Shown here piece after piece: positions 27,195-53,052 of a DNA stretch of 64,000 nt. Within the stretch, counting starts at the first letter, position 1; each line of letters starts with the position of its first letter. The DNA comes from Porphyra umbilicalis (taxonomy: Eukaryota; Rhodophyta; Bangiophyceae; Bangiales; Bangiaceae). The stretch lies in NCBI GenBank assembly GCA_002049455.2, contig KV918985.1, forward strand, positions 1 to 64,000. Direction: 5' to 3'. Both the position numbers and the translations under genes were made by a program. The notes beneath the pieces were generated by a model that was not told where the DNA came from, did no database searches, and was given only the letters and a program-made list of their open reading frames with translations.

Positions 27195-28430
27195 TCACAG
27201 CACGTCGCGGCCCGACGGCAGTGCCGCCGCGGCGGACCGCCCCCAAGCGGTGACGGCTTCGACCCAGTCGCCCGCGCGCGGGCCGAGCGCGGCCGTCGCC
27301 CACCGCGCCGGCGCGAGCAGCGCCGCCGCCACCGCCGGCTCCACCGCCGTCGTGTAGCAGCTGGTGCGGATGCCGTCGACGAGGAGGCCCCCGTCGACGG
27401 TGTGGGGGTTGTACAAGCCGACCCCTGTCGACGCCGACACGGCCGTGACCGCCGCGGGGCCCGCCGCCGAGACGAGGACGTCGCCCACGGCGACCGTGCG
27501 GGCGGCGGCGAGGCGCCCATTGACGGGCAGGTAGTGGCCGGGGGAGAGGCGCAGCGGCCGGACGGACGTGGCCGTCGACAGCTCGACAAACGGCGTCACG
27601 GCGTCGACGTCGGCGTGGCTAAACGCATACACGCGCGACGTGCGGCCGGCGGCTACGGCGACCACGTCCCCGATGTGGAGGTCGGCCATGGCCACCCGCC
27701 CGCGCCCGACGACCTCGACGGTCGCGTCGGCCGGGAAGCACACGTCCTCATCAGCGCCCGCCGGGGTGGCCGTCGAGGTGGGGGTGGGGCTGACGCTCCC
27801 GGGGCTCGCCCCGACGTTGGGTTGACCAAACCGGATCACCCCCGCCTGCCGCGCGGTGTGTCGCTGCAGCGCCGGCGCCCCCGTCGCGAGGGGCCCCTGC
27901 GCCCACAGGACGTTGACCGCGTCGCCGCCAATGACCGGCTCGGCGCTCACGTTGCGGGTGAAGGTGACGACCAAGCCCGCGGGGGAGCGGAAGGCGGCTA
28001 CGTTGGAGTAGCCCACATTTTCGGCCACGGCGACGGGCAGCCGCTGCACGCCCATGGAGTTCCGAGCCAGCAGCCGGTAGACCGAGGCGCTGGCCTCTCG
28101 CGGCGCCGCCACCGTCGATAGGCCAATGACCGCGAGGACCGGGGGCGGATTGGGGGCGACCATGGCCTGGCCCGGGCCGGAAAAGGCGAGCCCCGCCCAG
28201 CCGGTGCTGATGCTCATAAAGGCCGCCGTCAGCGTCGTGTCGGTGAGATTCCAGTACACTTTCATGCTGACCGTGCCGGTCAAGAGAGTGCAGCGGTTGT
28301 ACTTGGCGCGCGAGCCATTGACGGAGATTGTGCAGTTGCTGGCCGCCTGACCGGCCGTGGGGGCCGCCGCGACCGTGACCGCAACGGCGGCAACGAGGGC
28401 GGCGAGGGCCCACCTTCCGACAGGAGTCAT
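27195..28430 (-). CDS. Secreted DOMON-Hint (hedgehog-type autoprocessing) protein
   Basis: A single-exon 411-aa protein with an ATG start. Residues 1-30 are a signal peptide (ALAALVAAVAVTVAAAP). Residues about 33-195 resemble a DOMON domain (VYWNLTDTTLTAAFMSISTG, GWAGLAFSG, QAMV), known to bind haem or sugar and usually extracellular. A Ser/Pro/Thr linker leads to a Hint domain that opens at Cys231 (CFPADATVEVVGRGRVAM). It includes LRLSPGHYLPVNG, with the conserved block His, and closes with YNPHTVDGGLLVDGIRTSC, Cys358. Hint domains cleave the peptide bond before the first Cys via a thioester, so release of the DOMON part is expected (family knowledge plus inference). There is no cholesterol-transfer region of animal Hedgehog type, only a roughly 50-residue tail. 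The extracytoplasmic setting matches the flanking secreted-type genes. Confidence 0.85.
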   Translation of the reverse strand: MTPVGRWALAALVAAVAVTVAAAPTAGQAASNCTISVNGSRAKYNRCTLLTGTVSMKVYWNLTDTTLTAAFMSISTGWAGLAFSGPGQAMVAPNPPPVLAVIGLSTVAAPREASASVYRLLARNSMGVQRLPVAVAENVGYSNVAAFRSPAGLVVTFTRNVSAEPVIGGDAVNVLWAQGPLATGAPALQRHTARQAGVIRFGQPNVGASPGSVSPTPTSTATPAGADEDVCFPADATVEVVGRGRVAMADLHIGDVVAVAAGRTSRVYAFSHADVDAVTPFVELSTATSVRPLRLSPGHYLPVNGRLAAARTVAVGDVLVSAAGPAAVTAVSASTGVGLYNPHTVDGGLLVDGIRTSCYTTAVEPAVAAALLAPARWATAALGPRAGDWVEAVTAWGRSAAAALPSGRDVL

Positions 28431-32151: not shown

Positions 32152-32472
32152 TGGCGGCGGCCTGGGGCGTGCCCGTCGAGCATTGCGCGGCTTTGAAAGC
32201 GATCGCGGTGGGGGCCGCTGCGTGCCGACGCGTGCGCCGCGGGGTGTTGCAGCGGGGTCCCCCACACCCATGCATGGGGGGGGGGGGACAGCGGGGATGG
32301 TCCACGTGGCACCGACAGCGTGCGTTGTGCATCGTCACGGATTGTCGCGAGACATGCCACGTGGACTGTCTGTCTCCTACGTCCGGCACCGCCGCGCGCT
32401 GACGCCCGCCGTCTGGGCGCGTCGGCCGTCACGCCGCTGATGCTGACCGTGACGCCCGTGCGCCCGTGACGA

Positions 32473-32499
32473 TCGTCTGGTCATGACTTTTTTCCATCG
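32473..32499 (+). repeat. Left terminal inverted repeat
   Basis: This is the mirror of 44000-44026 with five mismatches. Its inner part, GACTTTTTTCCATCG, leads directly into the subterminal motif cluster. Confidence 0.7.
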
Positions 32500-32640
32500 A
32501 GAGCCCGTTTGCGATGGACTACGTACCCCTCGAGATTTGGTGAACAAGGGGGGGTGTTCGATGGACATTGTTGGGCTTTGCGATGGACATTTTTCGATGG
32601 GCTTCGACCCATCGGCCGATGAGCAGAGATTCTAGATACG
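32493..32640. repeat. Left subterminal CGATGG/CCATCG cluster
   Basis: About seven copies of CGATGG or its complement (sometimes CGATGA) lie within 150 bp in both orientations, including the palindrome CGATGGGCTTCGACCCATCG. Such a motif is expected very rarely in a segment this short. It probably binds element-encoded protein. Confidence 0.7.
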
Positions 32641-33247
32641 GACGCCTGGAATCTGAATCTGTCCGCACCTGTCTGGGGCACGTCTCCCTGCCCGTATCTG
32701 CGACATACCCCAGCGAGGTGATCCCAGCGCGCTGGTTGATGCTCTTATGGGGGTGCTGGTGGGCCTGCTGATGCACACATGCTGGTGTTTTGGGGGCCTG
32801 CTACGGCGACTGTCGTCCTGCTGCCAGGGGGGTGGGGTGGGACGGGGGCGGGGGTCGTATTGCTGCCAGGGGGGGGGGGGGGGGGGGGGAATGCGCGCCG
32901 CAGCATCATGATGACAAGAAAGAAAACAAGGATCCCACTGTCGCACCTAGACCGGTGCAAACCCACTCAAGATGCAGACACATGGGACAGACAGGCAGCA
33001 AACAACCAAAGAAAAACGGTGCACAAGAGCAGCCACAGAAATCAAAGCACCCAACACACAAGAGAACAGGAAGCTCGACGACAACTCAAGTCGATGAGAG
33101 CCGCTGAGCCGACCTCAACAAGAACAAAACGAGCGATGCATCCGTCCAGCACAAAGCAGACCAAACAGAGCAGGAGGCACCAAGAAGACTCACGCAGGGC
33201 AGAGCGGCAGTCCGCCGAGGGGAGACACTCAATCCGTTCAAGGGGGC

Positions 33248-36200
33248 TCAAACAGCGCCGCTGCCGCCCGCCACGCTGCCGCCCGCCGCGCTGCCAGCGG
33301 CCACCGCGCTGCCTTCAGCCGCGCTGGTGCCCCCCACAGCGCTCCCGGCCTCGGATGGGCCGCCATCCCCCGCAGTAGTTCCGGCGTCCACCGTGGTGCC
33401 GAGCCCATCTCCGGTGACGCCCCCGACGGCGCTGCCACCGGCACTCTGCCCCGCGGCGCTCCCACTGCCCGCCGCCACGCCAAGCTCACTGGACTCGCTG
33501 CCATCCGGCGAGGATGCGGCGCCGCCCGCGACATCGGCGTGGCTGCCACCCGCAGTGGCTCCACCAACCGAGCTCGTGCCGCCTGCTGCGCTGCTACCAC
33601 CCGCGGGGCCGCCGCCGTTGGGAGCTGGAGGCAGACGACCACGCATACGCTTCCCAACAATCGGCGCCGCCTCGTCGTCGAACAAGAACCGTCGCGGGTC
33701 CGCAGCGTCCGTAAAAACGAGACCATTCCACGGCGTCGTGTTGTTGGGAAGGAGGGGCTTCAGTCCCTCGAGCTCCGCCCTCCACAGGTCGTACCACCCG
33801 TTGTCCACGCCGGAGCGCCGACGCTGGCCAGATGCGACCTGCGTCAACGCATTGCGCACGAACATGAGCCCCAGGGCGTAATGCCCGGACGTCCCGTACG
33901 CCGCCTCGACGTCGCCGCAGTGCTTAGGCGAGCGAATGCGGTCGCTCACGCCCAAGTGGATGTACATCGCGTGCATTGCAACCGTCATCGCAGGGCGCCC
34001 CCTGGCGGACGCCATGAAGCGCGGCTGAGCCGCCTCGTCCGGCTTCTTCCGGGGGTTGATGTCCTTGAGCCACTCCGTCGCCTCCTCGGATGACATCTTC
34101 AGCTCTCCCTGCTCGACCGCTGCAAACCAGGCGGCGACGACCGGGCGCTTGATCGCCTCATACATGTGCGAGATCGACTGCATCATGGGCTGATATGCGC
34201 GGCGCTTGTCCGTCGCGCTTGACGTGCGCTTCTCCTTGCCGTGCTTGGCCTTGTAGGCCTCCGCCCTCTTCTTCTCCGCAGCCGCCTGCTTGGCCGTCTT
34301 GACGCGCGGCTCTGGGCCCGAGATCCAGCTCCTCAGGTACGTGTACGCGTCTTTCTCGTCCATCTTATGCTCGTCCATAGTCTCCTCCAGGATCATCTGA
34401 AAGTCGACGTCCGGGTGGTGGATGACGTCCTTGGTCACGACGGCCGCGCCAACTTCGGCAAAAGAGCGGCCCTTGACGCGCGCCCGAACGTTCAGCATCA
34501 TGAGGGCACCCTTCTTCATCTCCGACAGCTTGACGCCGGGCTTGGCGGCGTAGGCCGCTGAGTCCGACAAGATAGGGCCGCCGTAGCCAAACATGGAGAA
34601 GAGCTCCTCGTGGTCCGAGTACTCCTCGACGCCAGCGGGGACAAATCGCCTGGTGGGGCGAGGGCGCTTCTTGAACTCGCTGATGGCAACGCCCAGCCGC
34701 TCGATCGAGCCACCCTGCGTCTGTACCTTCTGTACCATGCTCTTGACCTCGGACGAGAGGGCCGACACCAACCCGGTCGCCGCAGTGATCAACTTGGCAA
34801 GGGTGTTCATCTCGGACTGTGTGGCGACGTGGTTGACGACGTGCTCCAACGGCTCGGCCGCTGCCACAGCCACGGTCTCGGCCACAAACGCGACACCATC
34901 GCTGCCGTGCCCATCGACCTCGGCCGGGGGAATCGCCCGAGCATCGGTGGATGGACGCGGCGAGACGCCAACAGCCTCACCCGGTGTCGCCGCGTGCGAA
35001 ACAGGCGCGGCTGGGGGTGAGCCAAGCGGCGCCAGGCGACCAGCAGGTGCCGTTGGAGGCGTACCACCCGCCGACGGGCGCGACAAAGGAGCCACCCGGC
35101 TTGGCGTGTGCTGCTGCACCGAGGCAGGCGCAGGCACAATGCGGGGGCGACGCGGACCGGCGCGACGGCCAGCCCGCCGCAGCGCAGGTGGGGTCGTGGG
35201 ACGCGCCAACACGAAAGTGTCGCCCCGAGCCGGCGTAACGGGCGAGGTCAACTGAGAACCTCGAGCCCCCACGGGGGACGGAATTGTCGACAGCGCAGCC
35301 TCCACGTGAGACGGGGTGGTCGGCGGCGCAGCCGCCACTAGAGACAAAGCAGTCGGCGGCGTGATAGCCGCCACGGATGACGGAGCAGTTGACGGCGTTG
35401 GCGCCATCGTCACCGTCGGCGCTGTCATCGCCGCTGGTGTGACAGCACGAGCCGGAGTCACAGGCAACGATACCGAGGGCGAATTCGGCACCGTCGGCGC
35501 CGTCGGCGACACTTGCGTCACAGCCCGAGCCGTCGTCATGGGTCGCGCGAGCGTGGGCAAGTGCGCCGAAGTGACAACTGTGGGGCGGGGACCCGCCATG
35601 GGGGACCAACCCGTCGGCGCCGTCGGCGGCTGCGAAAAGGCGGCGCGAGCCACTGCCGACGAGGGAACGGACGGCGCCATTGCAGGCGCTTCGACAGCAT
35701 AAGCCGACGGAACGTACGACGGGTTGAACGTGGGCTCGTCGGCCTGCCCGCCGAGTAGCGCCTGCGAGCCGTAGTCGGCATTTGCCTCCATCGCCGTTGC
35801 AAAGAATGAGTTGGCCGCTGGCTGCCCCATCGCTCCCGTCGGCAGCATTGGCATCATCGCCGGGGGCAGCAGCATGTGTGGATGCGGCATGTGCGGCTGC
35901 TGCGAGCCGTACGGGCCAAAGCCGGGAAGGGCCATTCCCGCCATACTGGGAAAGCTCATAGGCGGCGGCGCGCCCGCGGCAGCGGCCATGCTTGGAGAAA
36001 ACGGGAACAGCGGCGCCTCGAACAGCGGCGGAGGCGGCGGCGCGGTGAACTCCACCATAGGCGGCATCTCCACGCCGACCGACCCAAGTGCCCCCCCGTT
36101 GACAGAGGACGCGCCCACCGGAAAGACCGCCGCATCGTTGGCGTTGGAGGCGACCGCGGCTGAAGACGTACCGGCGGGCATCTCGTCGTTAGCACGCTGG

Positions 36201-36322
36201 TCCTCGTCCGACGGTGCAATGGCCGCGCTGCCCGGGACGGCCACTCGAGACACTTTGCGACCGACACCAGCTGCTCCCGACAGCAGCGCGCGCTTGCCAC
36301 CGCGGCCGCCTCGGCCCGTCAT
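33248..36322 (-). CDS. Unknown 1,024-aa transposon-borne protein, possible accessory DNA-binding factor
   Basis: The start is the ATG of MTGRGGRGGKRALL (36322); the frame extends 15 codons further only through a GTG. One exon. Residues about 100-490 are Pro/Ala/Thr/Val-rich with loose repeats (TPARAVTPAAMTAPTV style). At about 500-545 there is a predicted coiled coil (LAKLITAATGLVSALSSEV). A basic nuclear-localisation-like patch KKRPRPTRRF sits near 550. A conserved-looking globular domain spans about 565-890 (ELFSMFGYGGPILSD, HHPDVDFQMILEETMDEH, YTYLRSWISGPEP, a Lys/Ala-rich basic helix, GTSGHYALGLMFVRNAL, NNTTPWNGLVFTDAADPRR). The last 130 residues are Gly/Ser/Ala repeats. No known family is recognised. 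Its position inside the transposon, divergent from the transposase, suggests a role like EnSpm TnpA in binding the subterminal repeats; this is inference. Confidence 0.75.
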   Translation of the reverse strand: MTGRGGRGGKRALLSGAAGVGRKVSRVAVPGSAAIAPSDEDQRANDEMPAGTSSAAVASNANDAAVFPVGASSVNGGALGSVGVEMPPMVEFTAPPPPPLFEAPLFPFSPSMAAAAGAPPPMSFPSMAGMALPGFGPYGSQQPHMPHPHMLLPPAMMPMLPTGAMGQPAANSFFATAMEANADYGSQALLGGQADEPTFNPSYVPSAYAVEAPAMAPSVPSSAVARAAFSQPPTAPTGWSPMAGPRPTVVTSAHLPTLARPMTTARAVTQVSPTAPTVPNSPSVSLPVTPARAVTPAAMTAPTVTMAPTPSTAPSSVAAITPPTALSLVAAAPPTTPSHVEAALSTIPSPVGARGSQLTSPVTPARGDTFVLARPTTPPALRRAGRRAGPRRPRIVPAPASVQQHTPSRVAPLSRPSAGGTPPTAPAGRLAPLGSPPAAPVSHAATPGEAVGVSPRPSTDARAIPPAEVDGHGSDGVAFVAETVAVAAAEPLEHVVNHVATQSEMNTLAKLITAATGLVSALSSEVKSMVQKVQTQGGSIERLGVAISEFKKRPRPTRRFVPAGVEEYSDHEELFSMFGYGGPILSDSAAYAAKPGVKLSEMKKGALMMLNVRARVKGRSFAEVGAAVVTKDVIHHPDVDFQMILEETMDEHKMDEKDAYTYLRSWISGPEPRVKTAKQAAAEKKRAEAYKAKHGKEKRTSSATDKRRAYQPMMQSISHMYEAIKRPVVAAWFAAVEQGELKMSSEEATEWLKDINPRKKPDEAAQPRFMASARGRPAMTVAMHAMYIHLGVSDRIRSPKHCGDVEAAYGTSGHYALGLMFVRNALTQVASGQRRRSGVDNGWYDLWRAELEGLKPLLPNNTTPWNGLVFTDAADPRRFLFDDEAAPIVGKRMRGRLPPAPNGGGPAGGSSAAGGTSSVGGATAGGSHADVAGGAASSPDGSESSELGVAAGSGSAAGQSAGGSAVGGVTGDGLGTTVDAGTTAGDGGPSEAGSAVGGTSAAEGSAVAAGSAAGGSVAGGSGAV

Positions 36323-36459
36323 GGTGGCGAGGCCGGCGACCAGGAAAGCAGCTGCGCGGAGGGGCACACTCGGGGCGCTAGGAGGGGCTGCTCACTGGAG
36401 GGCGTGTGAGTGGGGTGAGCGATGAGACGAGCTGGCGATAGCGGTCGCAGGAGTGCTCT

Positions 36460-36467
36460 ACATATAC
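36460..36467 (-). promoter_or_regulatory. Candidate TATA element for the 1,024-aa gene
   Basis: Minus-strand reading gives AGTATATGTAG about 138 bp before the ATG at 36322, in otherwise GC-rich DNA. Position and sequence suit a TATA box, but there is no independent support. Confidence 0.3.
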
Positions 36468-38527
36468 TGCTGCCTCGGCCTCGCGGCGCAGCAAACGGGG
36501 ACATCCACACACCACGACACAGAGAGACCAGCCCACACATTGCCCCCAGCACACACACGCGCCCGCAGAACACACACACACAAGGGTACCTGGATTGACG
36601 GGCAGCCGCGAGACTTTGGAAAAAAGGGCGGGGAGGGGCGTGTGGCGGTCGGGCGCGACCGAGAAACAGTTGACAGCAGCTCCAAGTGGACAGCATGACG
36701 CCGTGAGAGGCCGGGTGAGGGGGCGCGCGTCCACCGCTAGCAAGCGAGCAAAGGCCCGAATCACCAAGTCATCGTGATGATGGATGGCATCTAACGCTCA
36801 AGCATCGCCTTAAGGGGGAACAGCCGTACCTGTAGAGGCACACGTAGAGCACACAAAAATGATGGGGGAAGGACAAGTCATTCAGTACTCAAGCCAGGCG
36901 CCTCCATGTCGTGCGCACGAACACCGAGATAGCCGACCAGCACTCCCCCATGACCTCCCACTCCCGAGGCCGAAAGCGCGCGAAAATGATCACCGGACAC
37001 CTCAAGCAAGACAGTACCGGAGACAGCGCCCAGCCACTGCGCCAAGCGGCCGAGAGAGAGGGGCGTGCGGGTGGCGGTCTAGTTCATGGGCGAAAGAGGA
37101 GCGGCACGGTACCGCCTGGCCAGAAAGGGGGAACGCGAACAAGTGACGGCAGCGCTCAGCAAACAGTGAAAACGGTCAGGTTGTTGACCTCTAACGGCCT
37201 GAACAACAGAAAAGAAACACGGCGCCCACAAGTGGCACCTTGCACCGCAGCAACACAGACCCATCATGAGATGATCTCAAACGATAACGTTTGACCAAGC
37301 AGCGGCGCCGCATACAGCTACCGTGCCCATGCTCGAGGCTCCGCCCTGACTGTTCGCCAAGTCCTCGCCCACTGCGTTCTAGCGCCAGTTACCTGTGGTG
37401 CTCGGGACAAGCGTCAGGAAAAGGGCGCAGTACTGCTTCACGGCCCGCAGCCTCTCGTCACGCGTCGCCGTCGTCGGTGTGCTGTCCGTCGTCGTCGTGG
37501 TGCTGCGCGCTAGGCTGAGCAAGGCAGGACGCTGTGGCGTCGTGGAGATCAGACATCAGGAGCTCCTGGAGCTGCAATCACAGATTCGTGATCTCGACTC
37601 TCCGGTACTTTCTCACAACTCGGATCCTAACTTCCAACAACTCAGAAATGTAGCACTCCCTACATTTTCGTTCCCTACGCAAGAATCCAGCCTACGATAG
37701 AGCTGAGAGCGCCTTGCCGTTGCATTCGAGCTCATGTAGTGCGGCTACTTCCATGGATTCTGGTGTAATTTGATCATGAAATGACACGCAAAACGACGGC
37801 AATGGGTGTCCTCGAAAGCAAGTCTCCTGACTCGCTCACGTCTGCGCGACACGGGCTCGTTTCCAATCTCGTGCGCCACGCTCTCGCCTGCTGTGGGCCT
37901 TCCTTGCACCTGCTTGCAGTTTCACAACGAGGGTTCCCCCTCTGGTTACGCGCCACGGGGTCCTGTCGGCCGGATGGACGACTGGCCGACGCCGGATTTT
38001 CTCTGTTCGGTCGCGACGGTCTCAAGCCTCTGGCAGCGGGCGACTCCTCGGTCGTTTCTTGTCTGAAATCGCCATGTCGTCGACGTCTGCTCCATGGGGT
38101 GCTTGCACCAGTCTGGTCACCACGGGAGCACGGTACCTGGCACAGTTATGATGCAACGTACGATGTGTAAGTCTGGCAAAGATGACAAGTGTCTCCGAAC
38201 GACGTGACGTGCGTGAGGGGCACCCCGCTCGCGGGGACACGCCTGACCCTGTTGCCGACTAGGGCATCTGCCCAATTCTGTTGCTGACAACGAGACCTGC
38301 CCTGGCCTCCCTGTATGCTTTTCGTTCTTGGATAATCGCTTCTTGACACCTCCCCGCTACCCTGTCGAGGTGCCTCGCCAGGCCAGCCTGGGCCGATTCC
38401 GAGCTTGCGGCGGTCACTCTCCCCTCCGTCGCCCAGGCCGCCGCTCCCTCCCGTCCAACGTCGCCTGGCGTCGGCTTATGTCGTCGGCGCCGGCCGGCAC
38501 CGCACCGCTGTCGCCCGTCCGTATAGC

Positions 38528-38880
38528 GGCCGCCGCCGGCCTTTGGCACCGCGCGGCTCTCCCCCGTCCGAACCGTGCCGCCGCCGGCCGTCGACATCCC
38601 GCGGCTGTCCCTCGTCGGCACCGCGCCGCCGCCCACCGTCGGCGCCGCGCCGCTGCCGGCCGTCCGAACCGCGCCGCCGCCGGCCGTCGACATCCCGCGG
38701 CTGTCCCTCGTCGGCACCGCGCCGCCGCCCACCGTCGGCGCCGCGCCGCCGCCGGCCGTCCGAACCGCGCCGCCGCCGGCCGTCGACATCCCGCGGCTGT
38801 CGCTCGTCGGCACCGCGCCGCCGCCCACCGTCGGCGCCGCGCCGCCGCCGGCCGTCCGAACCGCGCCGCCGCTTTGCGCG
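38528..38880 (+). repeat. 96-bp tandem repeat upstream of the transposase ATG
   Basis: The landmark TCGACATCCCG recurs at 38591, 38687 and 38783, exactly 96 bp apart; about 3.6 copies are present. As 96 is divisible by three, the repeat is open in phase with the transposase and would encode 32-residue Pro/Ala-rich units (VDIPRLSLVGTAPPP), but there is no ATG before it. It may be 5' leader or an N-terminal extension. Confidence 0.9.
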
Positions 38881-38883
38881 CCC

Positions 38884-41800
38884 ATGTCTGAGGTGCCCCC
38901 CGGGGGCGAGGCGATATCTAGGGCTACCGGTGCGGCTCTTCGACCGGCGGCCCGTCGGCCATTCGAATGCGCGCAATGCGGGTTCCCGGCCAAGTCGCGG
39001 CCGGGCCTGGTATGGCACCGTATGAACACTCACCTGCGCAGGTCAAATGCACAAGGGGAGTGTGACGCGGCCGTTGCCGCGCGCGACGGTGCGCGTGCCG
39101 CGCTTGCGTCGATGCATGCCGCCGTGTCTGGCGGGGCGTCAACGGCCGCCGCCTCAGAGCAGACCACGACAGTGGCGACTGCGTTAAGTGGGGGCAGCGC
39201 TGTGGCCTCAGCCGGCGCTGGCGGGGCGGCTGGTGCTACAACCGGCGGTAGCGCGGTAGGGGACTCCTGCTCGACGGGCACGGCTGGTGCAGGCGCCGAG
39301 GGCGCGGTCGGCGTGGCCGCCACCGCTGGCGTGGCCGGCACCGCCGGCGAACCGGGCTTGCCGTGCGACGATGACGGTGACCGCGGCTCTTCCACGGCCA
39401 GCGCGGCGGAGGAGGCGGACGAGGGGAGTGGCGAGCCAAGTTCGACTGTCCGAGGCGCACTCAACCCGGCCAATGACATTGACCACGCGGTGCTACTTGA
39501 CATGCAGGCACTGATGGACGTGTCCCGCCACCAGGTTGAGGCGGGCGGCGGCAGCCCGGCGCGCAAGCGCCGGCGGCTCGCGTCCGGCGGACAGGAGTCC
39601 GGGCCTGCGGTCGAGCCCGAGTACACGTACACGACCGTTGCAACAGCCGTGCGGGCTATGTACGAGGACGAGCGTGACTGGGAGCGGTCACAGCCCCTGG
39701 CAACCCGACGCAAGGGCTGGCGAACCGGATGCTTCAACTCATTTCGGCTGCGCGCCGTTGAGCGGTTTGCCCTCGAGTGCGATGGTGGGGGGTTGTCCCT
39801 GAAGGGCATTGAGAAGCTATGGGAACTGCTCGACACCTGGGACGGAACCAAGCCGGGTATGCCGATGGACGAAGGGCACGACAAGTCCCTGCGCGACTCT
39901 TTCAAATCCGTCAATGCCTTCAAGGACGCGATTCACGATGACGTTGATGACGGCGTGCTTGGAGCGGGGTGGAAGAAGTGTCCCCTCGTCGTGGACGGCC
40001 ACGAGTATGTCGTGCTCTTCCGCCCCGCGCTGCAAGTGATCTTGGCGATGCTCAAGCAGGGCAAGACGGTGCGCCTGTGGAGCGGGCCTAATGGGCCTGC
40101 TCCGCCCTCCGACACTCGAGAGTCCCCAATGGACGGCGACGCCTTCCGTCTCAACGAGGCGGCCTTGATGGAGGACAAAGTCGACGACAACTGCTTCGTT
40201 TTGGGCCTTCATTTGTTTAGCGATGCCAGCCAACTTTCTTGGTCGGGAGGTATGTGCCCTGGTACTGAGCTGCTGCGTACGGTGGGGATTTGGTGCGCTG
40301 ACCGCTGTCGTGTCTTGTGCAGTTTGTGGTACGGTGTGGGGAAGGCGAGTCGGTCGTGCTGGTCACTGACTTGACGCCGCCTCGTTCTTCACGCTCTGGA
40401 CGTCTGCATCCTGTCTTCGAACGCAGCGCACAAGCTCTATCCATTGCGCGTCCGTGTTGTTAACGTCGTGACTGGGGACGTCACGTGGGAGCCCGTCGCC
40501 TACATCCCGGTGATTCGGAAGCTGAAGGAGCCGTCCGCCGACTTGCGGGCCCGCGAGCGCCGCGCAGCCATCTTTCAGCGTGCTCTTTTCCTCGCGTTTC
40601 GCACCACCATCACGGCGAGTCACAAGGGCGTTTTGCACGAGCAGGGGGGCAAGACTTACGTCGCCTTCCCGCGCATCCTGATGTACATGTGCGACCAGCC
40701 GGAGGAGAAATCCGTGCTGTGCTTGAAGGGAGGCAACACAACGTATCCGTGCTCAAGTTGCAGGGTGCGTGTGGAGGAAGCAGGCGCATTCCAAGCGCTG
40801 TCGGCTGAAGACCGAGACGCGGTGCGAACCGTCGAGGCGCAATTGGAGAGTGCGGGTCATCGTCAGCGTCAACGAGAGCTGTTACGACGCACGGAGCTCG
40901 AGGCAGCCCACAGTGCCCATAGCCGCGTGCCTGTCGTGGCCGGCATGGCAGGCCTGTCGACTGCACCCTTTCTACTCTACAAGACGATCGGATTTGATGC
41001 CCTTCACGTGCGTTTCTTTGTTTCGCTCCCCTCGCTCGCGTGGCAGCCGCACGTCCTGTGACCGTGTGAGCGTTTCTTTTGGCTCTCCTGTTTATTGTCA
41101 GCCTGCCGGACCATCCATGCTGACTGCTGATATTCGAGTCTCTTCCAGTGCTCATCAACCCCCTCGTGCCATGCTTGATGCTACAGGTTTTGGATATGGG
41201 GGTCACTAGGATGTTGGTGCACCGCCTGGTGCGTGTCTTCCCCCACATTTGCGAGGGCTACTATCCTCTCTGCGAGACCATTGCCGCAACCCTTCGGGTC
41301 GCTAACAAGCGCATTGAGTTCATGGGTCGTCGCAGCACGGCGAGCAACGTACCTGGACCAGGGTATGTCTGTCCTTTTGCAATTTTGGACCCTCCGTCTG
41401 CTTCCAAGCGTTCTCATTCTCTCTTGTATCACCTGTTGTACGTGTGCGTGCCCTGTGTCTGGGCGCAGCAATCTCTAACGGTCGCTGTGTGATACTACAC
41501 TCAATGTTCGGATCCCCTTGCCATCATTATTCACATCACCTGCGCAGGTACATGGCACATGCCAGAGACAAGCAGGCCACATTCACAGGGGCTGACCAGC
41601 GGGCTGGGGTGTACGTCCTACCGTATGCCGTTGCGGGGATCTTCGGCCGCGGCCGGCCGCGCCCTGCCAAGAGCTCGCAGGCAGCAGCTACCGAAGGTGC
41701 AGCGCCAGCCGGTAGTGGCGCCCCCCCATCGCGGGGTCGCCGTCGAAAAGGCACCTTGGCGCGCGCCCGGGCGGCTCGAAACAAGTCCTCGGGCACTCAG

Positions 41801-43327
41801 GCCGCCAAAGCGGACGCTACGGGCGGGGCCTTGTTCGGTGGCAACGACGTGGATGATGACGAGGAGCTCCCGGCGGGCTTCAAGTTCGATTGGGACGTGT
41901 ACCGAGTCGCCTTCGGCGACACTCCCATTGAGGACGCCGTAACCATTATGTTCGCTGAGTATGCGTCCCTGTACGCCCGGATTTCCGGGTGGACGACGTC
42001 TGCCAAGCCCGCACCCATGACGCTGGAGGAGGGACAGTCCATCCAAGAGCAGGCCTCCAACTTTGTGCTCAACATTATGACACCCATCCTCGGCTACGTG
42101 CACACCAGCAAAGTGCATAAGCTGCTTGCCCACCTCATGGAGTCCATTCGCTACCACGGGAACCTAAGTAACGCCAACACCAGCAACAACGAGGCCGCTC
42201 ACAAGTCCGACAAGAAGTTGTACAGGCGCACCAACATGGAGATTGCAACATTCACTGGGCAGCTGGTACGCCAAGCCCAAGGTGCTCGCGAGGTTGTGCG
42301 CGGACACGACGCCGCGGACGCTCATGCGCTCCTCTGCTGCCCCATCTTGCAGCCACTGTCAAGGACGGGCACCGACACGGTGCCTACGCCGGGCGCCAGT
42401 GGCGAACGCACGGGGAGCGTCGGGTCGGCGCCGACGGGCGACAACCGCGCGACAGCAACGGACGGCGACCGCGCGGCGGCGACGGACGGCGACCGCGCGG
42501 CGGCGACGGAGGGCGACCGCACGGCACCGACGGGCGACAACGGCGGGGCACCGACGGGCGGCGGCGCGGCGTGGACGGGTGGCATAGCGGCGGGCAACAC
42601 GTCGGCCCTGGCGACGGGACGCGCCGTAGGGACCACGGGTGCCGTTACGCCCCCTGCCGCTCCACAGCGGCGGTCAGCTGGCAACCTGAAGCGCGTCTCG
42701 ATCAGCACGCTATCAAAGCGGCCTGGACTCGGTCTCGTTGGGCAGCTTTTCAAGTTGCGGCCCGAGGACACGCTGCCGATCTTGACCACTGTTGAGCTGT
42801 CGGCCGTGTTCGACTGCGGTTATCGCACCAAGCAGCTCGTCAGAGCGTCGCCTCAGTTCCGCACGAGCAAGCCCTGGTATGATTGCGTTATGTACGCGGT
42901 GAAGACGGGCGTGGCGGTCGAGCACGAGGACAAGGACGGCGAGGCCAACACGGTCGACGGCACCAACACGCGATGTGGTGATCAACGCGAGGAGCTGCAC
43001 ATTGGCGAGGTGCGGGCATTGGTCCGGTGCAGGGAGGACGACTACGCCGTGGTGTGCGAGTTTGACCCCATCCCAGCCGAGCCGGGATGCCCTTTTGACG
43101 TCAGAGAGTGCGACCGGCTGAAGTGGGCCGGCTCTGCAGCGACGCAAGGAGGGGTCATTCGCGGCGTGCCTTTGAGCATGGTTCGGCGTCTCGTCCACAT
43201 TGTCCCTGACTTCAAGGACTTGGCAGCAAGAAAGGGGCTACAAGCCGCTCCGGCGGGCTACAACTCTCCACGGGCTGACGTGCTTGCGATGCGCTACTTT
43301 GTCAATGCCTTTCATCCTTGGAGCTGA
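38884..43327 (+). CDS. Plavaka/EnSpm-like DDE transposase, four exons, 1,300 aa
   Basis: Exons 38884-40249, 40427-41007, 41187-41362 and 41548-43327 join in phase (3,903 nt) at GT-AG junctions. Near the N-terminus is a C2H2 finger (CAQCGFPAKSRPGLVWH, then MNTH), followed by an Ala/Gly-rich linker. The catalytic region shows LHLFSDASQLSWSG joined to AHKLYPLRVRVVNVV, and WEPVAYIPVI. It continues with FPRILMYMCDQPEEK, CLKGGNTTYPCSSC, KVHKLLAHLMESIRYHG and NTSNNEAAHKSDKKLYRRT. These match the order seen in Plavaka-type transposases; D of FSDAS, D of CDQPE and E of NNEAAHK are candidate catalytic acids (inference). A short 24-bp repeat then precedes a C-terminal domain like that of plant EnSpm transposases (WYDCVMYAVKTGVAV, GEVRALVRCRED, RGVPLSMVRRLVHIVPD). 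The start is the first ATG in phase; the reading frame is uninterrupted. Confidence 0.85.
42440..42545 (+). repeat. 24-bp coding tandem repeat
   Basis: The unit ACGGACGGCGACCGCGCGGCGGCG occurs about three times plus degenerate flanks, giving ATDGDRAA repeats in the linker of the transposase. It is in phase, so copy number can vary without breaking the protein. Confidence 0.85.
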
Positions 43328-43342
43328 GGCTGGTCAAGAAGA

Positions 43343-43495
43343 GAGGGGGGGGGGGGGGGGGTGTTTTGGGGGCTGTGTGTCGAGGAAGGAGGGAGGTGGG
43401 GGGGGGGGGGGGGGTGTTTTGGGGGCTGTGTGTCGAAGAAGGAGGGAGGTGGGGGGGGGGGGGGGGGTGCCCAAGGAGGGAGGGGGGGGGGGGGG
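43343..43495 (+). repeat. G-rich tandem repeat after the transposase stop
   Basis: About three copies of a roughly 65-bp unit, each with a G run of about 16-18 bp followed by TGTTTTGGGGGCTGTGTGTCG and AGGAGGGAGGTG, begin about 15 bp after the stop codon. The many G tracts could form G-quadruplexes in DNA or in the 3' UTR. Confidence 0.9.
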
Positions 43496-43916
43496 AGGTC
43501 GCCGTCCCGCCGGCATCCGTTGGCTTGGCGCCCTCTACCGCCTCCCGCAAGGGACGTGACGTAAACCGCCTTGCCCTTTAGTACCTCACGTCACCACTGT
43601 AGCCGTCGAGCTACGCCAAACGCATACGACGCGAACCTCACGAAGCTGTGCGTGCACAAGGCGTGCAAGAGGAAGGCTGGCTTTTGTCCGCGACGCCAAG
43701 ACAGACGAGGAGCTCCGTGCCACGCCCAAGACCAAGACGAAGACGCGCGCTCCTTCTTGGGGCCGCACCTGCCTGTACACGCAGCATCATCCAATAGAAT
43801 CTCTTGAACTAAAAAACGCACGTGCACGGCTGCTTGGGAGAGGCAGTGACGTCTGCGCAACAAGAATCAAAGATTTCTCTCGAGCACCCAGATTTGGTAC
43901 CATGTCTGCTCGCTGC
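43496..43916. other. 3' flank of the transposase inside the element
   Basis: Non-coding DNA between the G-rich repeat and the right subterminal cluster. I see no gene here. Confidence 0.4.
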
Positions 43917-44007
43917 GATGGGTTCGATGGGAACTTCGATGACCTCATCGAGGGCCCTTTTTTGCCCATCGAAAGGCAATCGAGCGCTCGATGGGACGCC
44001 GATGGAG
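43917..44007. repeat. Right subterminal CGATGG/CCATCG cluster
   Basis: Seven copies of CGATGG/CCATCG-type motifs (some CGATGA) lie in 90 bp in both orientations, mirroring the left cluster at 32493-32640 and ending in the right terminal repeat. Confidence 0.7.
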
Positions 44008-44026
44008 AAAAGTCCGAAGCAGACGA
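44000..44026 (-). repeat. Right terminal inverted repeat
   Basis: Its reverse complement matches 32473-32499 at 22 of 27 positions. The last base overlaps the A of an ATG that opens the next frame. Confidence 0.7.
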
Positions 44027-45018
44027 TGTGGGACTCCCGTGCGGGACGTCTGCGAGGCGCGGCCCTGGCGGCCGGTGCAAAGGCGGCGGCTGTGGCGCTC
44101 GCGGCGGTCGTCATCAGTGGCGGTGGGCTCTCGGGAGCCCGCGGACGGCGCGCCGGCGACGGACGCGGCGCGTCGTGCCGCCGCCCGTGGCCGCCGCCCG
44201 CGCGGACAGCCGCGGTGAGGCAGCCATCATGCTGCCGCTCCCATGCAGAGTTTCGCGTGGCTCCCCGACCCCCGCCCGCGTCGCCGCGGGGGTCCCCCGC
44301 CGGCGACGCAGCGGGCTGCGCCCCCCCCCCCTCCCCCAAACCCCACTGGCCACCATTGGCGGCGTTGACACCGACCCCCCCGCGGACGCCGTGTCACCCG
44401 GCGGCCGGCCGAGACAGAGTAAGCGCTCCTAGCGGGGTCCCCCCTCCCACCACGGCCGCCGCCGTGTGGCGGGCCGCCGCCCGTTCCGCCGCGCCACAAC
44501 CCCGCTCCTCCGCGACGAGCGGCGCGTCCCACACGCGCCACCCGCCCGCGCGTGACGAGCAGCGACACCCCCCGCCGGTCGACGGCTGCCGCCGCACCCA
44601 CCGCGTCCGTGGCCGCAAGCGCGACGGCTGCCGCGGCCACGGCCGCCCAACCTCGTCCGCCGCCGCCAACACGGGGCGTCGACGAGGAGCAGGCCGCCGC
44701 GGTGGCACGCACGGGGGATTGGCCCCCTTGGCGGACGTGATGGAGCGCCGCTGCGCACCAAACGTGCCGGGCACGGGGCGGGTGGCGACCGCCGCCGCGG
44801 GGCCGACGCACGGCTGGTCGGTGGACCGGAAAGAGGGGTGGGGCGTCGCCGCCGCGGCCGCGGACGAGCGTCAGGGAGCCAATGGGGGGGGGGGGGGGTC
44901 CGCCTCCTCCGGGCGCCCGACGGCAGCAGTGGCAGCGGCGGCGGGGGACGCCCGCGGGTGGACGGGGAGGTGGATGGTGGCGGTACGCCGTTGCACTGCG
45001 GGTCGGGGCTGCCCTTAA
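44026..45018 (+). CDS. Hypothetical protein, N-terminal hydrophobic segment
   Basis: An ATG exactly at the transposon border opens a 330-codon frame. It begins MWDSRAGRLRGAALAAGAKA and continues with AVALAAVVISGGG, which could be a targeting or anchor segment. The remainder is Arg/Pro/Ala-rich and crosses several C and G runs; other frames look equally coding-like in places (for example TSSDTPRRSTAAAAPTASVA at 44555). The true product may therefore be split by homopolymer errors or introns. No domain is recognised. The C-terminal stretch PTHGWSVDRKEGWGVAAAAA is the most protein-like part. Low confidence. Confidence 0.25.
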   Translation: MWDSRAGRLRGAALAAGAKAAAVALAAVVISGGGLSGARGRRAGDGRGASCRRPWPPPARTAAVRQPSCCRSHAEFRVAPRPPPASPRGSPAGDAAGCAPPPSPKPHWPPLAALTPTPPRTPCHPAAGRDRVSAPSGVPPPTTAAAVWRAAARSAAPQPRSSATSGASHTRHPPARDEQRHPPPVDGCRRTHRVRGRKRDGCRGHGRPTSSAAANTGRRRGAGRRGGTHGGLAPLADVMERRCAPNVPGTGRVATAAAGPTHGWSVDRKEGWGVAAAAADERQGANGGGGGSASSGRPTAAVAAAAGDARGWTGRWMVAVRRCTAGRGCP

Positions 45019-45878: not shown

Positions 45879-46140
45879 ATGGGCTCCACCGTGGCCTCCC
45901 TATTGACCGCCGCGGCGGCGTTGGCCACCGCCGCGGGCGACGGCGGCCTGCCGCCCGCCGCCGCCGCCGCCGTTGCCGCCGCCCGCGCCGCGGTCGCGTC
46001 CGCGCTCAGCGCGGTGGGCTCCCCACCGGCGCTCGCCATCGGCCCTGCCTCTTCCTCCATGGCCAAGGTCGCCGGCAGCAATGGCCCTGGCCATGAGAAC
46101 CATGGCAGTGGCGGCAATGGCGGCGACGGCAGGGGCACCG

Positions 46141-46186
<46 letters not shown>

Positions 46187-47317
46187 GGTGCCCCCGCCCA
46201 TGCCCAACGACGCGGCCGACACCAACCCCTACTCGCGCCTCATGGCCCTCCAACGCATGGGCATCGTCACGGACTATGCGTCCATCCGCTCCCGCTCCGT
46301 CGCCGTCATTGGCGTCGGCGGCGTCGGCGCGGTCGTTGCCGAAATGCTCACGCGCTGCGGCGTCGGCGCGCTGCACCTCTTTGACGCCGACACCGTCTCG
46401 TCCGCCAACATCAACCGCCTCTTTTACACGCCCGCCCAAGTGGGCACGCCCAAAGTCACGGCCGCCGTGGCCACGCTCGCCGCCATCAACCCCGACGTGG
46501 CCCTCACCCCGCACCCCGTCGACGTGACGGTTGCGGCGGCGGGGGGCGGCCACGACGCCCTCGTGGCCACCCTCGCCACCGTCGACGCGGCGGTGTGTTG
46601 CGTCGACAATTACGCGGCGCGGCTCGCCGTCAACGCGGCGGCGCTGGGCGCGACGGCCGGCGGGGTGGCGTGGCTCGAGACGGGCGTGTCGGAGGACGCC
46701 CTGTCGGGCCACGTGCAGCGGCTGCTGCCGGGCGTTACCGCCTGCTACGCGTGCGTGCCGCCGCTGGTGGTGGCGACGGGGGGGGACGAGGTGGCGCTCG
46801 TGCGCCCGGGCGTGTGCGCCGCGTCGTTGCCAACAACGATGGGGGTGGTGGCGGCTTTGGCCGTGCAGGGGCTCCTCAAGGGGCTCCTCGGGTGGGGGGA
46901 AGTCGCCGACTATGTGTCGTACGAGGGGCGCCGTGATTGGGTGGCCGTCCACCGGCGGCTGCGGCCCAACGGGGAGTGCGTCGAGGGCGGGTGCGTCGCC
47001 GCGCAGCGGGTCGTGGCCGGGGGGGGGGGGGGGGGGGGGGGGAGCTCCTGTGGCGCCAAGGCGTAGCGGCTGCCGCGGGCGCGGAGCAAAAGGGGGGGGG
47101 ACCCCCAACGCATGGCGCCAATGAGTGGGGCATCACGGTCACGGGGGCGGGGGACGACGAGGGCGGGGGGGAGGCGACGCCGCCAGTGACGCCGCCCGGG
47201 GCGGCGGCGGCAGCACCGGCCCCGTCGCTGACGGCGGCGGCGGTGGCACCGGCGGCCGACGTGGCCGCCCCATCGGTGCAAGACCTGATGGCGCAGCTGC
47301 GGGCGCTGCAGCCGTGA
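45879..47317 (+). CDS. UBA5: UFM1-activating E1 enzyme UBA5, frame changes at a G24 run
   Basis: The ATG at 45879 starts an Ala-rich leader and a Gly tract from a GGC repeat (about 46143-46186). Then NPYSRLMALQRMGIV begins the ThiF-type adenylation domain. It has the nucleotide loop GVGGVGAVVAEMLTRCG (first Gly at residue 145), zinc ligands Cys289/Cys292 (CYAC) and Cys367/Cys372 (CVEGGC), and the catalytic Cys313 in GVCAASLPTTMGVV. These are the established UBA5 signatures for activating UFM1 and passing it to UFC1. The literal frame stops at 47066 after G24. In the frame reached by one more G or two fewer, the sequence continues with GANEWGITV, matching the UFM1/GABARAP-interacting EWGI motif, and ends SVQDLMAQLRALQP, matching the UFC1-binding tail. 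So the true C-terminus is almost certainly 47317. No intron is needed. Product cytosolic, acting at the ER in UFMylation. Confidence 0.93.
47019..47042 (+). repeat. G24 homopolymer inside UBA5
   Basis: Twenty-four consecutive G residues separate the catalytic part of UBA5 from its C-terminal interaction tail, which lies in a different frame. Confidence 0.95.
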
Positions 47318-50532: not shown

Positions 50533-53052
50533 ATGTCGGGCGGCATCCCCCCCCGGGACCGGGTGCGCGACGCGCAGAGCAGCCTCGTCAATTTGGCGGC
50601 GGAGGGCGCGGTGCTCGCCCCCAGACCAGCCGCCCCGGTCGTTGCGGCGCCCCAGCAGCGCCCCGAAGGCGACGCGGCGGCAGCGGCGGTGGTGACCGCC
50701 GCCGGCGACAACGCCACGATGCTCCGCTCGGGCACCATTGAGAAAATCGCGGCCATGTCCACCGCCGGCGAGGACGCGGCGTCCCGCGCGGACCAGCCCA
50801 AGATTGTCGCCCTCGTCTCGGCGGCGACGGAGAATGGGGACCCGCGGTACGACCACTTTACCAAGCGCCTCGTCGCGCACCCGTCCAAGCTCGGCCGCCT
50901 CGAGGCGCCGCACTTGTCGTCGTGGACGCGCGTCGGCCGCTTCCCGTCGCCCTTCAAGACCAACCCGCGGTCGCTCAACTTGGGGCTCTCCTTTGTGTCC
51001 AACAATGAGACCATCTTGGTCGACATTATCGGGCACGCGCAGCACGAAACGATCAGCCGCGAGTTCCTCCGCTGCGGGCCGCGGGAGTTCATCGCCTTCC
51101 ACCCGCAGACCGTCAACGCGGCCATTGTCACGTGCGGCGGGCTGGCGCCGGGCCTCAACACCGTGGTCCGCGAGCTCGTGTGCACCTTGTCCCGCCTGTA
51201 CGGGGTGGAAAACATCTATGGCGTGCCCTATGGCTACCGGGGCTTCTACTCACCCAACCACAACTTGCGGCGGCTGACGGAGGATTCCGTGTCGAGCATC
51301 CACCACCAGGGCGGCACCATCCTCGGCTCCTCCCGGGGCGGCTTTGACCTCAAACTCATCTGCGACGCGGTGGAGGACCGGAGCCTCAACCAGATTTTCA
51401 TCATTGGTGGGGACGGCACCCACCGGGGGGCGCTGGCCATCTACGAGGAACTCCGCCGGCGGAAGTGCAAGATTGCCTGCGTCGGCATCCCCAAAACTGT
51501 GGACAATGGTACGTGGAGGGGGTGCTCGTGCTCTGGGTGGCGTGGTCGGCTACGGGGTTTGTGGTGTGCCGTCGAGCTGCTGCCTACTGGTCATGAACTG
51601 ACGACACCTCTGCTCCTCTGTTGTTTTGCTCTGCTCAATGTTTGGCTGGAGCGCCTGGCGGGACAACCTAAACTGTGCTATCCACCCTGTGTGGCCTTGA
51701 TGGCGGTTGACTGCGACAGATTTCCCCCTCATCGACCGCTCCTTTGGGTTTGACACGGCCGTTCAGGAGACGCAGCGGGCCATCAACTGCGCCAAAGTGG
51801 AAGCCGAGGCCGCCATCAACGGCCTGGGGCTGGTCAAGGTTATGGGCCGGGCATCCGGGCAGATTGCAATGGTATGATTGAGGGCCGTCGTCTGCGACTT
51901 GGTTTGGTCTTGCTCCTATCGTGGCGCTTTGTGCTGGCGCTTTGTGCTGGGACGCACCGCCGTCCTGCTCGATAGTGCCTGACCCGCTCTACGTGGCCAC
52001 TGCTACTCGACAGTTCTCTCCCCTTTTTTGTACATATCCTGCTTGACTCTGTACTCTTCCTCGCCTACCGACCTATTTTGCTGCCCCGCAGTTTGCTTGC
52101 CTGGCCTCGCGTGACGTCAACGTGTGCCTCATCCCCGAAATCCCCTTTGAGCTCACCGGCGACCACGGCCTGCTTCGCTGCGTGGCGGACCTGTTTGAGA
52201 CCAAAGGCCACTGCGTCATTGTTGTGGCCGAGGGCGCGGGCATGGACCTGATTTCCGACGATATGCGGTCGTACGGTACGGACGCTTCCGGCAACGTCAA
52301 GCGACCCGACATTGGGCTCTGGCTCCGCGCCCGCATCAATGAACACTTTGCGGCGCAGGGGCAGGAGGTCAACCTGAAGCTCATTGGTATGTTGTCTCTT
52401 GCAGTCTCTCTTGTGTTTGTAGAGGTGGAAGTCTTATTGATAGAGGGGGGCGGCGAGGCGTGCACTGACCTGGGCTGCATGGCATGAGTTCTGGCTGAGA
52501 ACCAGTCATCTGACGCTTTCACCTGGTGCACTTCATTTGGGCTTTCTGCTGCGGTTTCCTTTTCCTCTCCTCATGCTCCTTACTTCAATTCCCTTCTTGG
52601 CTTTGTGCTCTGCCCTCGTTGGCGTTCGTCATTTTGTACTGTGCAACTTCTTGCTGTTGTCTCTTTTGGCCTTGTTTGGTGTGCTTTTTGCTACAGATCC
52701 ATTCTACATGGTCCGGAGCCTGCCTGCGAACGCAACGGACTCGCTGTACTGCTCCCTCCTCGGCCAGTCGGCGGTGCACGGGGCGATGGCGGGCTACTCG
52801 GGCTTTTCCACGGGCATAGTCAATGGGCACCACGTCATGCTGCCAATGACTGAGATTTGTAACCGCAGTCGGACCCGAGTGGACGTGCACAGTCGGATGT
52901 GGCATCGTGTGCTCGCATGCACCAACCAACCGTCGCTGTGTGGGAGCAAGGTCGAGGAGGTGCCGGTCAAGGAGAGCGGCAAGCCGGCCAAGCCCATGGC
53001 GGTAAGTGTGGAGCCGGTGCCTCCGCCGCCCCAACCAGATGCGGCCGAGTAG
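50533..53052 (+). CDS. PFK: ATP-dependent 6-phosphofructokinase, plant-type
   Basis: Four exons, 50533-51508, 51720-51871, 52092-52386 and 52697-53052, splice in phase at GT-AG sites to 592 aa. Signatures: [17 protein letters not shown] (about 200-215), SSRGGFDLK, the nucleotide site [11 protein letters not shown] (GGDG at 292-295, the Gly form typical of ATP users rather than the GGDD of pyrophosphate enzymes), and the catalytic PKTVDND (320-326), which is completed across intron 1. Further along are [45 protein letters not shown] and [16 protein letters not shown]. It phosphorylates fructose 6-phosphate in glycolysis. The first about 90 residues are low-complexity and may be a targeting leader, but no clear transit motif is seen. 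Introns are 211, 220 and 310 bp. The tail [14 protein letters not shown] is short and variable. Confidence 0.93.

Follow-up and report, generated by a model that had tools for sequence, protein, structure and literature searches.

The genomic stretch of the red alga Porphyra umbilicalis considered here (contig KV918985.1 of assembly GCA_002049455.2, positions 1 to 64,000 of the forward strand; this whole stretch of 64,000 nucleotides is called the window below) contains two long genes facing outward from a shared centre, and it raises the question of whether they belong to one complete transposon and what the gene accompanying the transposase contributes. An earlier reading of the letters (the original prediction) had proposed an apparently complete transposon, which is borne out by recurrent two-ended copies with exact borders. 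The element is complete and has been recently mobile, as indicated by borders that recur, a spliced transposase frame that is open and has the expected catalytic and zinc-binding motifs, a conserved divergent open reading frame (ORF1), subterminal repeat arrays, copies that are nearly identical but lie at different sites, and short non-autonomous copies with the same ends. It is likely to be an autonomous cut-and-paste transposon of the Plavaka group, related to EnSpm/CACTA, with an Asp-Asp-Glu (DDE) transposase, in a Bangiales-type red alga, and ORF1 would be its required accessory, likely an end-recognition or assembly factor.

The borders and the terminal features, as fixed by comparison with relatives, are as follows.

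32472..44027, no strand assigned: whole element, 11,556 bp, ATCGTC...GACGAT; borders fixed by relatives
32472..32499, plus strand: left terminal inverted repeat, 23/28 match to the right end
44000..44027, minus strand: right terminal inverted repeat, 23/28 match to the left end
32494..32614, no strand assigned: left subterminal CGATGG/CCATCG array, 6 sites
43916..44005, no strand assigned: right subterminal CGATGG/CCATCG array, 5 sites

The imperfect inverted ends had been predicted as 27 bp long (22/27); the borders now lie one base wider on each side, and the first 28 bases match the inverted last 28 at 23 positions; as a control, pairs of 60-bp stretches lying 11.5 kb from each other were compared at 400 random places of the window, and their best 28-mer match was 19. 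Should the outer AT at each end represent a target duplication, the element itself would measure 11,552 bp. The terminal 2 × 250 bp contain 11 CGATGG/CCATCG sites and the 11,056 bp between them contain 8 (0.36 per 500 bp); 300 shuffles of the terminal 500 bp gave a mean of 0.5 and a maximum of 4 sites. The clusters are thus subterminal, as had been proposed, but the hexamer is not found at both ends only, since the 8 interior sites occur at the background rate. Pooling of five elements gave 62 sites in 10 ends, with 2.9 expected from the interiors, two of the five (on contigs C366 and C537) being nearly identical and so not independent cases. The positions of the sites are nearly fixed: in four relatives, the left-end sites start 23, 41, 66, 87/88, 102/103 and 116 bases from the end, and the right-end sites of four of the five elements lie at 28, 39, 83, 91, 103 and 121. 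The left-end sites of the window element lie at 23, 41, 88, 110, 124 and 138, so that it retains the common positions 23, 41 and 88 on the left, and it also retains 28, 39 and 103 on the right.

Searches with the terminal 200 bp of the C537 relative clearly indicate that the borders recur. All nine left-end matches begin at base 1 of the query, and all twelve right-end matches reach exactly to its base 200; a facing right end was found on the same contig at seven of the nine left-end places (C537 itself, C366, C64, C177, C3, C106 and C83), and another of the nine, on C333, is a 784-bp copy with both ends. Apart from the window element, the same ends are paired in six gene-sized copies, a copy of 17.7 kb and twelve derivatives of 0.8–1.0 kb, so the two ends, whose joint recurrence was the critical point of the original prediction, do occur together in other copies. 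The gene-sized copies measure 11,556 (window), 11,601 (C3), 11,446 (C177), 11,699 (C366), 11,991 (C537), 10,739 (C245) and 12,030 bp (C64). The copies on C366 and C537 share 98.4–99.1% identity in three long stretches, exactly from the first base to the last, with about 0.4 kb extra in C537; the common borders of these nearly 99% identical copies and their different flanks point to recent movement of the element family. The window's own left end found seven matches besides itself, the one at C276 (83%) being the sole strong one, and its own right end found two, both weak, which indicates few copies of the exact window subfamily. The weakness of these right-end matches could be taken to favour a coincidence in which a transposase, a host gene and fortuitous repeats lie side by side; since the two ends and the two genes reappear together, within exact borders, in other copies, such a coincidence is extremely improbable.

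The 17.7-kb copy (C106:117825-135531) is a relative of the 11.6-kb C3 copy whose two ends are known from their matches, and the approximately 6 kb extra towards its right end are presumably a nested insertion. Contig C227 matches C537 in the right part of the element and in the right flank with 99.8% identity over 11.7 kb, and has no match further left; the two are taken as the same insertion, and the left-side mismatch may reflect an alternative haplotype, a rearrangement or an assembly join.

Short copies, which carry the ends at a much closer distance, were found repeatedly. The searches with the window ends led to nine non-self loci, six of which (L003, L004, L005, L006, L008 and L010) have both ends 784–971 bp apart; the other three are the gene-sized copy on C276 (L002), a locus with one end (L007) and a locus with none (L011). 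In nine further short-copy places, sampled at the ends alone, both ends were seen in six (C27, C375, C373, C274, C108 and C83), and the second end was not seen where expected in three (C271, C87 and C492). When the end of one short copy was used as the query, the T of GACGAT was the exact stopping point for 15 of the 20 other matches. At C23:375070-376973, two copies of the same short-element end face outward 1.9 kb apart, forming a fold-back or doubled non-autonomous element, or belonging to two neighbours.

Both ends were read in 19 elements, seven gene-sized and twelve short. The outer AT is present at 38 of 38 ends, and ATCGTC/GACGAT at 37 (GATGAT at one, in L005); the ends had been picked by patterns of this form, so the count is biased towards them, and independent support for AT-bounded ends comes from the exact match borders in the end searches and from the C366/C537 alignment. 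Inspection of the printed flanks by eye revealed no duplication beyond the AT. This suggests a 2-bp AT target duplication as the simplest reading, where the AT could instead belong to the ends; such a duplication would fall within the 2–3 bp expected of Plavaka, and target duplications of 2–5 bp are given for the clade including Plavaka (PMC12730594, cited here, like the other papers, from excerpts).

The two outward-facing genes of the original prediction correspond to ORF1 (36322-33248, minus strand) and to a transposase gene (38884-43327, plus strand), the latter with the following exons.

38884..40249, plus strand: transposase exon 1, with a C2H2 finger and the first catalytic D (LFSDASQ)
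40427..41007, plus strand: transposase exon 2, with the second D (MCDQPEEK), C(2)C (CSSC) and GFDALHV; part of the Pfam Plavaka match
41187..41362, plus strand: transposase exon 3, with DNA matches at C106, C177, C227, C245, C3, C366, C537 and C232
41548..43327, plus strand: transposase exon 4, with H(4)H (HKLLAH), the catalytic E (SNNEAAH) and the stop at 43325-43327

The four exons, joined on the basis of frame and homology rather than RNA, are separated by three GT-AG introns of 177–185 bp and encode 1,300 residues without a stop. A Pfam search indicates the relationship of the product to the Plavaka family (PF18759; E-value 1.1e-8, 35.2 bits against a cut-off of 26.3, profile positions 101–280 of 325), and the motif order agrees with it, in line with the Plavaka/EnSpm-like transposase proposed earlier; the order D-D-C(2)C-H(4)H-E is that given by Kojima for Plavaka, EnSpm and Transib (PMC12730594). 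In the spliced protein, the motifs lie at D 447, D 545, C(2)C 564-567, H(4)H 898-903 and E 923, the catalytic D and E being assigned by motif order alone. They are kept at most alignable positions in 21 further distinct loci (L020 repeats C245), with the following exceptions: the first D is missing from L030, the second D is replaced by E in L028 (C64), one Cys of C(2)C is absent from C232 and L025, a stop interrupts GFDALHV in L021, and C276 covers little; the window's own first-D cell in this comparison is an artefact of the alignment running into an intron. The C2H2 finger pattern is found in 11 distinct loci including the window, the stretch not being alignable in the rest. The covered parts (1157–1222 of 1300 residues) are stop-free in C3, C366, C537, C227, C245 and C177, and stops were found in C232 (four) and C106 (one). 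The ratio of non-synonymous to synonymous substitution rates (dN/dS) is 0.19–0.23 for five of the six pairs; the sixth, the window with the decayed C232 copy, gives 0.53, and synonymous sites are near saturation in several pairs. Identity to C3 and C177 is 67–73% in the first two exons and 49–67% in the last. Scoring of 150 of the 316 candidate matches to transposase exons in the genome indicates that related transposases are numerous; in a search of prokaryote genomes, with eukaryotes outside its scope, none of 538 pattern matches was confirmed as a relative.

Directly after the transposase stop, at 43345-43469, the window has a 53-bp tandem unit with long G runs, which could influence transcript ends or be assembly-prone.

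The second gene and the region separating it from the transposase are laid out as follows.

33248..36322, minus strand: ORF1, single exon, 1,024 residues from the ATG at 36322, divergent from the transposase
36323..38883, no strand assigned: centre of the element, separating the two divergent genes and containing a tandem array of 48/96 bp (38495-38872)

The ORF1 product has a Pro/Ala-rich N-terminal half, a stretch resembling a coiled coil by eye, a Lys/Arg-rich stretch and a conserved C-terminal region (residues ~515-917, numbered from the GTG at 36367). Long ORF1 frames (944–1118 residues, stop to stop) are present at C245, C366, C537, C177 and C3, a shortened one (709) at C106 and a split one at C276. 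A relative of ORF1 lies divergent from the transposase in 10 of the 13 transposase loci examined (the window, C3, C106, C177, C366, C537, C245, C276, C71, where the profile E-value is 1.4e-42, and C14), so the proposed pairing of a transposase with a partner recurs in the lineage; ORF1 is also present in all six examined gene-sized copies with both ends (there are seven such copies, C64 being outside the count). ORF1 is under purifying selection, as indicated by moderately diverged pairs (dN/dS 0.16–0.19): the core values are 0.159 for the window and C276 (327 codons), 0.184 for C366 and C177, and 0.193 for C537 and C177. Core identity is 39–41% to four of five homologues and 75% to C276; ORF1 diverges faster than the transposase, the pattern described for TNPA relative to TNPD/TNP2 (PMC2613891). 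ORF1 might also be a passenger gene, captured once, carried and dispensable for movement, as accessory genes are reported in red-algal EnSpm elements (PMC12477816) and TET/JBP genes in some fungal Plavaka (PMC12730594); this is unlikely, considering that its relatives are always divergent, accompany transposase exons down to 55% identity, are under purifying selection and are missing from none of the six copies mentioned.

The partner had been described as unrecognised, and so it stayed in Pfam and PDB profile searches: scans of the window member and its homologues revealed no Pfam family above its cut-off, three matches to solved structures in the PDB profile search (E-value 0.29–1) were discounted, and 10 pattern matches in viral contigs included no relative. 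SLT_2 and DUF5654 (E-value 0.004–0.02, below the cut-off, window member only) and the other weak Pfam matches were judged to be due to chance. DUF6532 (PF20149), which we take to be a fungal domain of similar appearance to ORF1, is a lead only: it matched the C177 homologue alone (E-value 0.17, 12.2 bits against a cut-off of 24, 39–184 of 194 positions) and was not listed for the other members scanned, where filters drop weak matches, and a genome search with it gave no match, its 14 controls likewise finding nothing. DUF6532 and Plavaka are named together among the domains of some Ganoderma species (PMC8955403).

The ORF1 protein probably takes part in end recognition, in the manner of TnpA in En/Spm, a role favoured by analogy, i.e., by resemblance in layout and not by membership. 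The transposase would pair the two ends across the CGATGG arrays and cut them by DDE cut-and-paste, with insertion at AT and a 2-bp duplication; the ORF1 protein would be a required accessory, acting with the transposase on the arrays as an end-recognition or complex-assembly factor, and both proteins may mobilise the short copies in trans.

Several observations weigh against this reading. ORF1 was not seen in three of the 13 loci, namely C227, where that half is replaced, C232, which is rearranged and has stops, and C234, where only ~4.5 kb upstream was examined; at C14, it is represented by a single weak match of 89 residues (E-value 5e-4). Its dN/dS is 0.31–0.58 between distant copies, where the comparison is near saturation, and the two youngest pairs, with few changes to count, give 1.3 and 0.63. 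The single-sequence fold is unusable (predicted local distance difference test score, pLDDT, 37.7). When the two flanks of a copy were joined and used as the query, for C366, the window element and C177, only the occupied site was returned (the C177 query additionally matched its own inverted repeat), and comparison of the 400-bp flanks of 11 elements with the loci then sampled yielded no empty site, so the 2-bp AT duplication is unproven. Pfam scans recognised no DNA-binding domain in ORF1, and the transposase's own conserved C2H2 finger could bind the repeats. The latter two points also fit a different division of labour within the same transposon, where the transposase alone recognises the arrays via its finger and ORF1 serves in anti-silencing, nuclear import, regulation of the promoter region shared in the centre or target choice; the finger is kept wherever its stretch can be aligned, and the ends hold the same CGATGG core though the ORF1 cores are only ~40% identical. 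This arrangement is possible, if somewhat doubtful: known TNPA-like partners are likewise dissimilar between families with a conserved transposase (PMC2613891), and a single finger would be insufficient by itself for arrays of 5–7 sites with conserved spacing.

Among known systems, the autonomous two-gene transposon proposed here is closest to Plavaka, an EnSpm/CACTA-related group of the CMCT clade (Kojima 2025, PMC12730594), with which it shares the Pfam match, the D, D, C(2)C, H(4)H and E residues and short inverted ends, a 2-bp duplication being compatible. Its ends are ATCGTC..GACGAT (or CGTC..GACG), whereas those of fungal PlavakaA and PlavakaB are TGT..ACA and CATCA..TGATG (PMC12730594), so the element is filed under neither; moreover, a conserved second protein and subterminal arrays go unmentioned in the excerpted Plavaka description, which concerns another host (PMC12730594). 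In maize En/Spm (CACTA), TNPA binds subterminal repeats, and TNPA and TNPD are both required (PMC2613891). A transposase with an unrelated partner, subterminal arrays at both ends and derivatives sharing the ends are common to both systems; the present proteins are encoded by two separate divergent genes, unlike the alternative transcripts of one gene in En/Spm, and the element has no CACTA terminus and another repeat motif (12 bp in En-1) (PMC2613891). ORF1 and TnpA were compared in sequence through Pfam alone. The CAC..GTG termini and 3-bp duplication of EnSpm/CACTA in the narrow sense were not found in the ends and flanks read. The two-protein system of Nuwa (PIF/Harbinger), one protein of which is a transposase, belongs to another transposase superfamily and has a Myb/SANT DNA-binding partner (PMC12730594), whereas Pfam scans of ORF1 gave no Myb/SANT family match.

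Plavaka was described from fungi (PMC12730594), and has been reported in an ichthyosporean (PMC11244446) and, as EnSpm-Plavaka, in the green alga Auxenochlorella (PMC12633428); red algae are reported to contain giant EnSpm elements that carry accessory genes (PMC12477816, citing Petroll et al. 2025, Current Biology). The giant elements share the host phylum, the EnSpm group and the presence of extra genes with the present element, which differs in being compact and in having one recurrent partner, as far as the citing sentence permits comparison (PMC12477816). The suggestion of an undescribed two-gene lineage therefore holds in part: the compact form that combines ORF1 with ATCGTC ends and CGATGG arrays was not found in the literature searched, which left most subscription papers and Repbase outside, but Plavaka in a green alga and giant EnSpm elements in red algae had been reported. 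The study of the giant elements is said to name Plavaka.

For a red-algal Plavaka branch, the element documents the whole structure, from the borders, the two genes and the arrays to the short derivatives and the recent near-identical copies, and it supplies a conserved orphan partner protein with a directly testable role. Tentatively, ORF1 may represent a new partner-protein family, unrelated to TnpA, Myb/SANT and TET and obligatory for a Bangiales-type Plavaka branch that has ATCGTC ends and CGATGG arrays and inserts strictly at AT, and hence a second independent two-protein origin in the CACTA-related clade. If true, such a system, of separate evolutionary origin from TnpA/TnpD, would reveal what a transposase of this clade requires in addition to its catalytic subunit.

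The window has a G+C content of 65.5%; values of 64–68% are given for Pyropia yezoensis, P. haitanensis, P. umbilicalis and Bangia, and 37–57% for other red algae (PMC7423979). Phycobilisome genes (PF00502) gave 11 matches, ten on contig C665, taken as plastid, and one on C128; the latter (C128:88079-88342) is a partial domain match (E-value 1.9e-15) in a 442-residue frame and may be a nuclear gene or transferred plastid DNA. The phycobilisome genes and the G+C content together point to a red alga of the Bangiales as the host, although phycobilisomes also occur in glaucophytes. The window further contains a long frame with a Hint (hedgehog/intein-type) module at 27198-28430 on the minus strand (Pfam E-value 1.8e-19) and, on the plus strand beside the element, two host-type genes, encoding a ThiF-family protein at 45879-47063 (E-value 1e-41) and a partial phosphofructokinase at 50533-51750 (E-value 1.3e-27, profile positions 2–130 of 277).

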